Origin: Odobenus rosmarus divergens
Lineage: Eukaryota > Chordata > Mammalia > Carnivora > Odobenidae
Direction: 5' to 3'
NCBI RefSeq assembly: GCF_000321225.1
Contig: NW_004450286.1
Span: 653,489 to 717,488, forward strand
Length of the DNA: 64,000 nucleotides
This document shows positions 17,996 through 64,000 of the stretch, piece after piece (the first letter of the stretch is position 1; every line of letters starts with the position of its first letter). The position numbers were made by a program, and so were the translations under genes. The notes beneath the pieces were generated by a model that was not told where the DNA came from, made no database searches, and worked only from the letters and a program-made list of their open reading frames with translations.

Positions 17996-18480
17996 TTGTG
18001 TGTGTGCATGATGGTGTGAAAGCATGGGGGACATGAAGGCGGGTGTGGGTATGTGTGAAGCTATGTGTGTGTGTGTGTGTAGATGGAGGTGAATACGGGT
18101 GTGTGAAGGTGTGTGTGTGTGTAGATTGAGGTGAGTATGGGTGTGTGTGTAAATGGAGGCAAGTATGGGTGTGTGAAGGTGTGTGTGTGTGTAGATGGAG
18201 GTGAGTACAGGCGTGTGAAGGTGTGTGTGTGTGTGTGCAGATGGAGGTGAGTACAGGTGTGTGAAGGTGTGTGTGTGTAGATGGAGGTGAGTACGGGTGT
18301 GTGAAGGTGTGTGTGTGTGTAGATGGAGGTGAGTACGGGTGTGTGAAGGTGTGTGTGTGTGTAGATGGAGGTGAGTACGTGTGTGTGTGTGTATATGTGT
18401 GTAGATTGTGTGAAGGTGTGTGTGTGTGTAGATGGAGGTGAGTACGGGTGTGTGTGTGTGTGTGTGTGTGTAGATGGAGG
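17996..18480 (+). repeat. TG-rich minisatellite, roughly 40-bp unit
   Basis: Tandem units alternate a gtgtgtgaag element, a longer (GT)n run and an agatggaggtgagtac element. Unit length varies because the GT runs vary, so it is a natural imperfect minisatellite and most GT runs are off the lattice (for example, the run beginning at 18,379 misses the grid by one base). The artificial lattice becomes visible inside or just after it, from about 18,416-18,452. The reverse strand gives a His-Thr false frame. Confidence 0.85.
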
Positions 18481-18703
18481 TGAGTACGTGTGTGTGTGTG
18501 TATATGTGTGTAGATGGATGTGAGTGTGTGTGTGTGTGTAAATGGAGGCAACTATGGGTGTGTGTGTGTGTGTGTGTGTGCATGGATGAAGATGTGTGTG
18601 TGTGTGTGTGGGTGTGTGTATGGGGGGGTGAGTGTGTGTGTGTGTGTCTGAATGTGGGTGTGCGTGTGTGTGTGTGTGTGTGGAAACCGTGAGGGAATGT
18701 GTC

Positions 18704-21700
18704 GTGTGTGTGTGTGTGCCCTACAAAGAGCAAAGTGGGGTGTGTGTGTGTGTGTGAGCTGAGCGAGAACTAGTCGTGTGTGTGTGTGTCCGTGTGAAGA
18801 ATCGGCCACCGGTGTGTGTGTGTGTGTCTGAGCCACACAGCGGATGAGTGTGTGTGTGTGTGGCCGGGGAGGTCACCAAGGCTGTGTGTGTGTGTGTGGT
18901 TGGCCCAAGGTCCGTGTCGGTGTGTGTGTGTGTCCTGAGCTGCCTGGCTCCTAGTGTGTGTGTGTGTGTTCCTCGGACCATCTGCTCCGCGCCCCCCTGC
19001 CCTGCTGAGCGGCCGGCAGCACCCTGGGTGTGTGTGTGTGTCGCCCTGGGACCCCAGGCCTGCGTGTGTGTGTGTGTATGCCTGAAAGGGCCGCTCTGGG
19101 TGTGTGTGTGTGTCTGCCCTCTCCCTGTGAAGAGCGTGTGTGTGTGTGTAGGCTCGCACCTGGGCCTCCCAGTGTGTGTGTGTGTAGCCCTCTCCACCTC
19201 CTCCTTCCAAGGCATGAAGCCAGGGCCCGAGGAAGCAGGGGGTGGCCAAGCACCACCAGGGGCCTGGCAGGGGACAGCCTGACAGACAGCTGGGGCAGGC
19301 CACATGCCGGAAACTGGCCGAGGGCAGGCCCCTGGGCCCTCTGCCCCGCCCGTGTGTGTGTGTGTGGGAGGCTCTTGTCCCCTGCCCGTGTGTGTGTGTG
19401 TCTCTCCCCCACTGCCCCCGTGTGTGTGTGTGTGTGTGCTGAAAGTCCAGAAGTTAATCGTGTGTGTGTGTGTGAAAGCACAGGCTAATGCTCCTATGTC
19501 GGGGGATGATGGATAACCATGGGTGCAATGCGTGTGTGTGTGTGTCTACCCGCATGCCCATTTGACAGTGTGTGTGTGTGTGGCCCAGAGAACGGACTAG
19601 GTGGCCAGGGCCTCTAGCTGGCCTGGCCTATCATCATGGGTGTGTGTGTGTGTAGAGGGTTCCATGTCTGCCCTTGTGTGTGTGTGTGTCTTACAATGCC
19701 AGGGAAGGAGGGTGTGTGTGTGTGTTCTTCCAGCCTTGGTGTTCACTGTGTGTGTGTGTGTCGTGTTAGCTTGGGAGGGGGGAGTGTGTGTGTGTGTCTG
19801 TCCCAGTGTGCCCAGGACTGTGTGTGTGTGTGTACTGAAAGTCCCACATCCCTGGGTGTGTGTGTGTGTCAGGCAAATCGGACAGTTGGTCCCCCTACTC
19901 TAACCAACAGGGGACATCTCCCAGTGCGTGTGTGTGTGTGTGGGCCAGGCTGGAGGGTGGGGAGTGTGTGTGTGTGTCATCAGCTTAACCGCCCTGCCTG
20001 TGTGTGTGTGTGTACCCGCCTCTGCTTGAATGCCCGTGTGTGTGTGTGTCTCACCACCGAGTTAGGTACCTGTGTGTGTGTGTGTGCATCTCCAAGTGCC
20101 AGAAAGTGTGTGTGTGTGTGTGCTGATGGCTGCCTTCCTGTGGGTGTGTGTGTGTGTCATCCCCTTCCCCCCCCACCTTGTGTGTGTGTGTGTGAACACC
20201 CGGAAGACACGTGCCGTGTGTGTGTGTGTTGCCCTTCAGACTCTTGAAAGCGTGTGTGTGTGTGTCTGGGGCATCTTGGGCACGTCTGTGTGTGTGTGTG
20301 TTTTCTAGGCCCTCTTGCTTCATGTGTGTGTGTGTGTCTAATGAGGAGCAGACAGCAGACAGCGGGGTCCACCTCATCACCCCTCTCCCACCATGGTGTG
20401 TGTGTGTGTCTCCCCGGCTTCACGCCCTCTCGTGTGTGTGTGTGTCAGCTGCTCCCCCCGCAATCTCGTGTGTGTGTGTGTCGCCTACTGCATGCCAGCC
20501 CTGGTGTGTGTGTGTGTGATACGCTACCAAATGGGACAAGTGTGTGTGTGTGTCTCACTGGGGCTGCCGGTCTCCGTGTGTGTGTGTGTAGCGCCACGGG
20601 TTGGGGTTTAGGTGTGTGTGTGTGTCCTATGGGGCGCTGTGAGGCTCGTGTGTGTGTGTGTACCTGAGCTGTGTCCAGGCTCCGTGTGTGTGTGTGTTAG
20701 GTGAAGGGGGAAAAGAGGGGTGTGTGTGTGTGTGCAAATCCGCAGCTTGGAGAGCGTGTGTGTGTGTGTAGGGCGCCCTAAGTGCAACGGGGTGTGTGTG
20801 TGTGTGTGGGACCCAGTCTGCGGGAAAGTGTGTGTGTGTGTCCCCATACGGAAAACAGACAATGTGTGTGTGTGTGTATGGAGGCAGGGCAGCGGGGACT
20901 AGCGTCGTCATCCATCTGTCTCTGCTCTCCCAGGCGTGTGTGTGTGTGTGCCCACGCATGGGTAGGGTGGGGTGTGTGTGTGTGTGGGAGGGGACAGGGC
21001 TGTCCTCCCCCAGGCTTCACCTGCTAGTCTGTCACACTCCTGCGTGTGTGTGTGTGTGAGGCAGCCCTCTCCCTCCTGCGTGTGTGTGTGTGTTCCTCCA
21101 CACCGTAAACCTGTCGTGTGTGTGTGTGTGAAAGGCCTGGCCATCAGCCACGTGTGTGTGTGTGTACCTTCTCTCCGGTTGCGTGTGGTGTGTGTGTGTG
21201 TCAGGAGGAGGCAGGAGGCTGGCGTGTGTGTGTGTGTTAAATCTATCAAAGCTAGTTTCGTGTGTGTGTGTGTATTCCTCTGTAAAAAGCCACTCGTGTG
21301 TGTGTGTGTATTACAGAATTCATTTGATGTCGTGTGTGTGTGTGTTGGCCTGGGTAAATCCAGCAGGGTGTGTGTGTGTGTCTCCCAGCTGGGCTCCTGT
21401 CTGGTGTGTGTGTGTGTGGCACCGAGTCATGGTGTCTCAGCCTCTGCCTCCGTGTCTGTGGAATGGGGATACAGGGTGTGTGTGTGTGTCAATGGTACCA
21501 CTGATGCATGTGTGTGTGTGTGTGTCTGGCACAGAGTTAGGCCCCTAGTGTGTGTGTGTGTTGATGATGCATACTGAAGCCTGGTGTGTGTGTGTGTTTG
21601 GGGAAAGGTGATGGGGGCAGTGTGTGTGTGTGTGGGTTTTTAGCTCCTGACTGGCGTGTGTGTGTGTGTCAGGCCCTCCTGCATCACTGGGCACTCTCTG

Positions 21701-63021: not shown

Positions 63022-63465
63022 GTGTGTGTGTGTCTCTGTGAATTCTTCAGGGGAAGTGTGTGTGTGTGTCGGGAATCCAGGGAGGGAACCGGTGTGTGTG
63101 TGTGTGTTACTGCAGCGGAACGGCCAAGTGTGTGTGTGTGTCTCCGGCTAGGGGGAGTCCTTGCTATGGAAGGAGATGCCCACATCACCGCCGCCCTTTG
63201 TGTGTGTGTGTGTTCTTCAACCTTGACGCTCTGTTGTGTGTGTGTGTGTTGCGTACGATCTTCCCTTTCTGGTGTGTGTGTGTGTAACAGTAATGGTCTT
63301 CTTGCCAGTGTGTGTGTGTGTCCCTTTCTAATTCATTTCCCAAGTGTGTGTGTGTGTGATGCACCAAGTCTTGTCTTAGGTGTGTGTGTGTGTAAGTCAA
63401 CCCCATTGTATGTGAGTGTGTGTGTGTGTCTTTTATGCCTCAAATAAAACTGTGTGTGTGTGTGT
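63022..63465 (+). other. PCBD1 3' untranslated region
   Basis: Runs from the lost stop codon to just past a canonical AATAAA at 63,443-63,448. A length of about 440 nt fits the short PCBD1 mRNA. The usual position 10-30 nt after the signal puts cleavage near 63,460-63,475, which overlaps a GT block at 63,452-63,465, so the cleavage site itself cannot be read. Confidence 0.75.
63443..63448 (+). terminator. PCBD1: Polyadenylation signal AATAAA of PCBD1
   Basis: A canonical hexamer in the context cctcaaataaaactg, about 425 nt after the stop codon position, and the only good candidate in the downstream sequence before 64,000. It falls in a 22-nt window and was not overwritten. Confidence 0.8.
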
Positions 63466-63475
63466 TCTCAGGCTC

Positions 63476-64000
63476 TAGAACCTTCCTTTCCACAGGTCAG
63501 TCCAAATTGGAGTCTACAGGCATGTGTGTGTGTGTGTCTGTGAGAGGCACTGTTCAAGGGTGTGTGTGTGTGTGCGGAGTGGGACCAGACCACCCTGTCT
63601 TCATGTAGGGGAATTAAGCAGGAAGCAGGAAGTGTGTGTGTGTGTGATGAATGAAGTCAGTGCTAGAGTGTGTGTGTGTGTATGAGCTAAGGGAACATGA
63701 AGTGTGTGTGTGTGTGTAGTCTGGATGCTTCTCTGACCTGTGCCTCGAAGACCTGAATGGGATTCTTGAGGCAGGGTGTGTGTGTGTGTTACCATGACTA
63801 AAAGAAAAGGTGTGTGTGTGTGTGTTACTTATGCATGGTGGGATCTAGTGTGTGTGTGTGTGTCTGTGGCTGTCTTATGTTCTGTGTGTGTGTGTGTATC
63901 CCAGGGGGAAATTTCTAATGTGTGTGTGTGTGTGTGGTTTCTTAGAGACTTAGTCGTGTGTGTGTGTGTTTGCCTGCTTTTACTGTGTAAGGGAGAGGAC
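63476..64000. other. Downstream flank of PCBD1
   Basis: About 525 bp of sequence under the lattice after the PCBD1 polyadenylation site. No exon is recognised. In human the next gene on this side is SGPL1 (remembered synteny), but nothing of it is visible here. Confidence 0.5.

Follow-up and report, generated by a model that had tools for sequence, protein, structure and literature searches.

The window analyzed here, the whole stretch of 64,000 nt, carries from position 18,416 onward blocks of one and the same GT repeat at a fixed stride of 36 nt, and the question raised by this locus is how these blocks came to stand there. Exact (GT)7 occupies 995 of the 1266 slots that start at positions congruent to 20 modulo 36 (starts 18,416 to 63,956). 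Each of the remaining 271 slots differs from (GT)7 by 7-14 mismatches, and slots with 1-6 mismatches do not occur, in agreement with the identity of the blocks claimed in a preliminary description of this DNA. The phase, stride and coordinates given there (20 modulo 36, stride 36, from 18,416 on) proved exact, without a single phase slip over 1266 slots. The lattice reaches the end of the window and its extent is at least 45,000 bases; the filled blocks add up to 13,930 bases, i.e. 31% of the affected stretch. The coordinates of all features are listed in Table 1.

The distribution of (GT)7 starts modulo 36, suggested as a check in the same description, separates the two parts of the window clearly. 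From 18,416 on, 995 starts fall on residue 20, and another 127 are found on residues 16, 18, 22, 24 and 26 together, the latter representing longer GT runs that enclose an on-phase block. Upstream of 18,416, none of the 511 slots at 20 modulo 36 holds (GT)7. All seven off-phase runs of (GT)7 or longer are located upstream of this position within a natural GT minisatellite, and none is found downstream. Away from the blocks, 65 other runs of GTGT or longer are spread over 24 residues modulo 36, a selection that omits the residues near 20. The bases flanking the blocks show little bias: GT follows a block directly in 5.5% and precedes it directly in 5.8% of cases, compared to 4.7% GT in the spacers. 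As this is close to chance, the block length is 14 nt and the extensions arise roughly by chance. The spacers of 22 nt had been described as single-copy DNA; there are indeed no duplicates among the 1266, but some spacers are part of SINEs.

Table 1 Features of the window (positions are those of the whole stretch)
Feature	Position	Strand	Remarks
Natural GT-rich minisatellite, 42-nt unit	18065..18525	+	TRF 18067-18525, period 42; lattice starts within
109-nt tandem duplication, copy 1	18298..18406	+	No filled lattice slot
109-nt tandem duplication, copy 2	18407..18515	+	Same as copy 1 except three bases in slot 18452
Lattice	18416..63969	+	1266 slots of 14 nt, stride 36, 995 exact (GT)7
First visibly overwritten slot	18452..18465	+	Twin 109 nt upstream (18343-18356) has different letters
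Eight consecutive empty slots	41780..42045		
SINE copy with three blocks	49171..49304	+	Aligns to copy 11906-12041 (- strand, outside lattice), 2 gap columns
Nine consecutive empty slots	54380..54681		
Longest empty stretch, 17 slots	56288..56877		
PCBD1 exon, residues 2-40	61966..62082	+	One in-frame block (slot 61976); no block in slots 62012 and 62048
PCBD1 exon piece, residues 49-67	62349..62405	+	Block at slot 62372; tblastn match to human PCBD1
PCBD1 last exon, residues 72-104	62920..63018	+	Two in-frame blocks, slots 62948 and 62984

Whether the blocks were added to the underlying DNA or took its place can be read from coding exons, a tandem duplication and SINE copies. The preliminary description assigned the window to the PCBD1-UNC5B locus. 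Its PCBD1 part is backed by matches to solved PCBD1/DCoH structures, but UNC5B was not found in the window when an N-terminal segment of human UNC5B was used as query (best E 0.065, low-complexity). For PCBD1, the query of the tblastn search was the human protein, of which residues 1, 41-48 and 68-71 lie outside the matches. Residues 2-40 match the structures 3hxa and 1dch at 4.8e-17, gapless to 3hxa and with GVCVC in place of AHRLS. For residues 72-104, matches to 1dch and 3hxa were obtained at 1.5e-6, the one to 1dch being gapless, with two five-residue stretches replaced. The PCBD1 exons thus stay in frame and gapless across the blocks, at a loss of about five residues per block, and since 36 nt correspond to 12 codons, the reading frame is kept past each block. 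The PCBD1 promoter might lie in a GC-rich stretch near 59.2 kb.

The two copies of the 109-nt duplication differ by three mismatches (18,455-18,457), all located within slot 18,452. In addition, the SINE at 11,880-12,050, a putative carnivore SINE outside the lattice, served as reference for aligning six lattice stretches that carry SINE landmarks. All six score better when the blocks are treated as 14 unknown bases than when they are removed (93 vs 34, 69 vs 33, 68 vs 48, 56 vs 34, 43 vs 22 and 59 vs 41), with unknown bases being free in this scoring, which favours the replacement model somewhat. The corresponding replacement alignments contain 2, 17, 13, 15, 7 and 0 gap bases. Equal-length replacement was found wherever it is testable, namely in three PCBD1 exon pieces, one duplication and six SINE stretches, and an insertion of the blocks is ruled out by the PCBD1 frames, the 109-nt duplication and the SINE stretches. 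Judged from these sequence comparisons, the blocks replace DNA and are not inserted; the 14-nt substitution raised earlier as a point to check was seen in all three settings within the window.

The lattice starts inside the natural GT-rich minisatellite. The preliminary description counted the blocks from 18,416, and the slot phase does hold from there. The 109-nt duplication, however, pairs the blocks at 18,416 and 18,488 with twins at 18,307 and 18,379 that sit off the lattice, which identifies the former two as natural; the first visible alteration is slot 18,452. The two natural (GT)7 blocks in each 109-nt copy are spaced 72 nt apart, which is twice the lattice stride. Among the nine GT runs of at least 10 nt upstream of 18,416, five are exactly GTGTGTGTGTGTGT. 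Exact natural (GT)7 starts at 9 of 18,401 positions upstream of the lattice, so that a blind placement would rarely start on one (about 1 in 2,000 for a randomly placed lattice, calculated post hoc). The overlay seems to have been seeded at natural (GT)7 blocks of the minisatellite. These correspondences, spotted after the fact, point to the natural array as the source of the word, of the starting point and perhaps of the stride. Further repeats upstream of the lattice comprise an array of CCTCCCTG (8-nt unit) and a CCAT/CCAC array, both natural-looking tandem arrays (12405-12712 and 14243-14482), as well as a perfect (CA)19 microsatellite (10411-10448, + strand).

The empty slots, left undescribed so far, amount to 271 of 1266 (21%), with about 79% being filled. 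They are clustered: the sequence of filled and empty slots forms 363 runs, compared to 427 ± 12 in 2000 shuffles (minimum 385), and the probability of a hole is 0.33 after a hole and 0.18 after a filled slot. When the three long empty runs (Table 1) are left out, the clustering is weaker yet persists (357 runs vs 383.7 ± 10.7; 34 of 5000 shuffles as low). Across the 100 slots from 54,416, the fill rate is only 0.53. By eye, the empty stretches at 54,380 and 56,288 are AT-rich, whereas the one at 41,780 is not. The mean number of mismatches to (GT)7 is 10.68 in empty slots and 10.64 in spacer DNA, and no empty slot has fewer than 7 mismatches, where 3.7 are expected. As empty slots and spacers are about equally distant from (GT)7, there is no visible dependence of filling on resemblance, and filling by likeness to (GT)7 was ruled out since no effect was seen.

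Sequence composition is a poor guide to filling as well. A flank-composition model reached a cross-validated AUC of 0.50, with 4 of 28 flank features at p < 0.05 when tested singly. Filling shows a weak positive correlation with regional GC content (Spearman 0.009, 0.059, 0.091, 0.079 and 0.096 at ±1, 3, 5, 10 and 20 slots) and with the GT/TG content of adjacent spacers (Spearman 0.079 at ±1, p 0.005). T is slightly scarcer in empty slots than in the sequence on either side of them (-0.018, Wilcoxon p 0.003, T being one of four bases tested). A search for a period in the succession of empty slots was negative, with no modulus from 2 to 39 passing |z| 2.5.

Taken together, the lattice is almost certainly a constant word written in silico over genuine mammalian sequence and not a product of biology. 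The overlay or data-processing artefact proposed earlier is supported by the equal-length substitution, the all-or-nothing slots and the continuous phase. No DNA process known to us exchanges stretches of equal length at a coordinate stride, free of errors and through exons and repeats alike, and it is for this reason that the word is attributed to in-silico writing. A program would have written GTGTGTGTGTGTGT over the PCBD1-region sequence with a constant step of 36 along the sequence coordinates, beginning within a natural GT minisatellite that already carried the same word. It would have filled about 79% of the slots and apparently left the other 22 of each 36 bases untouched. We infer that software did this writing and that the contig coordinates were already in place at the time. 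The repeat could have set off a fault during assembly or file processing, or the record or window could have been spiked or augmented on purpose, with word and start taken from the natural repeat; the start on a natural block fits both equally well. The clustering of empty slots and the weak effects of GC, GT/TG and T are not predicted by a plain random dropout from such an overlay, and a known program with a failure of this kind was not identified. Bit-packing, in which two-bit codes would give the GT fill pattern, was set aside because 14 nt are not a whole number of bytes.

The other explanations differ in the level at which the blocks would have arisen. An error in reads or assembly is very unlikely, whether it came from a faulty sequencing cycle, from failed basecalling or from a k-mer polisher that carried GT repeats over into the contig. 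GT-rich minisatellites are places prone to polishing and assembly errors, and the lattice start lies in one; moreover, the default k of 37 of the polisher JASPER gives a k-1 equal to the stride. However, as shotgun reads have random starts, a fault tied to the sequencing cycle should not be able to hold the contig register for 45 kb, the 995 junctions between GT and unique sequence would hardly be frequent in reads as a k-mer polisher demands, and exact equal-length replacement with spacers still matching exons and SINEs is unlike a consensus error. A k of 37 as the source of the 36-nt stride was dropped. JASPER requires any path that it accepts to consist of k-mers found frequently among the reads, and the stamping of a word is not described in the text consulted (PMC10096238).

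A real genomic structure, with regular Z-DNA-prone GT tracts laid down by a hypothetical copying process in which 14 bp are exchanged per 36 bp, is extremely improbable. It would account for the start at a natural GT array and for the reuse of the array's own word, as might be seen in a templated process, but not a single mutated or length-changed block exists across 1266 slots, and four blocks ruin codons of PCBD1, a conserved enzyme, in exons whose remaining sequence agrees closely with PCBD1. Nor was a lattice with unique spacers present among the at least 123 prokaryotic and viral pattern matches listed. Still somewhat less credence is due to the lattice as a physical part of the animal's genome, where a templated process seeded by the minisatellite would have rewritten 14 bp in each 36-bp interval along 45 kb or more, PCBD1 included. 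The least credible reading is an ordinary, unusually regular minisatellite. A 42-nt GT minisatellite is present at 18,065-18,525, yet the lattice spacers, some of which belong to exons and SINEs, include no duplicate, and the ten runs of (GT)4 or longer upstream of 18,416 start on nine different residues modulo 36, none of which is 20. A head-to-tail tandem repeat of whole units was rejected, the 14-nt word alone being recurrent.

If the overlay of software origin is the right reading, the locus has no biological significance and matters as a case of data quality. The letters in filled blocks are then not the true bases, apart from the few natural blocks and chance agreements, and are not to be trusted. 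The blocks break the PCBD1 gene model and would yield false microsatellite and Z-DNA calls. If the overlay is also present in a public assembly, that record needs correction. Such overlays can be recognized quickly by an in-frame test, 36 nt being 12 codons, and by a duplicate-copy test.

Database searches returned nothing resembling the lattice. Rfam at gathering scores gave no match, and Pfam (E up to 0.1) gave no family for ten long open reading frames chosen from 209, three of them from upstream of the lattice. Pattern scans of contigs returned at least 119 prokaryotic and 4 viral stretches, with every listed match being a pure or nearly pure GT run; 14 records among the matches listed have a spacer that is not pure GT, and none has unique spacers. 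In the literature, searched at the level of abstracts, no description of such a GT lattice was found. Among known systems, k-mer polishing errors as in JASPER (k 37) share the 36-nt stride in the form of k-1. With natural GT-rich minisatellites, the lattice shares the (GT)7 block of the array at 18,065-18,525; such minisatellites repeat the whole unit, whereas the lattice repeats 14 of 36 nt and no spacer recurs. Synthetic spike-in or masking, as generally known, has the constant word, the constant stride, the equal-length replacement and an apparently small regard for underlying content in common with the lattice. In contrast to such sequences, the lattice uses a GT repeat as its word instead of N or X, it starts on a natural copy of that word, and about one in five slots is spared, in clusters.
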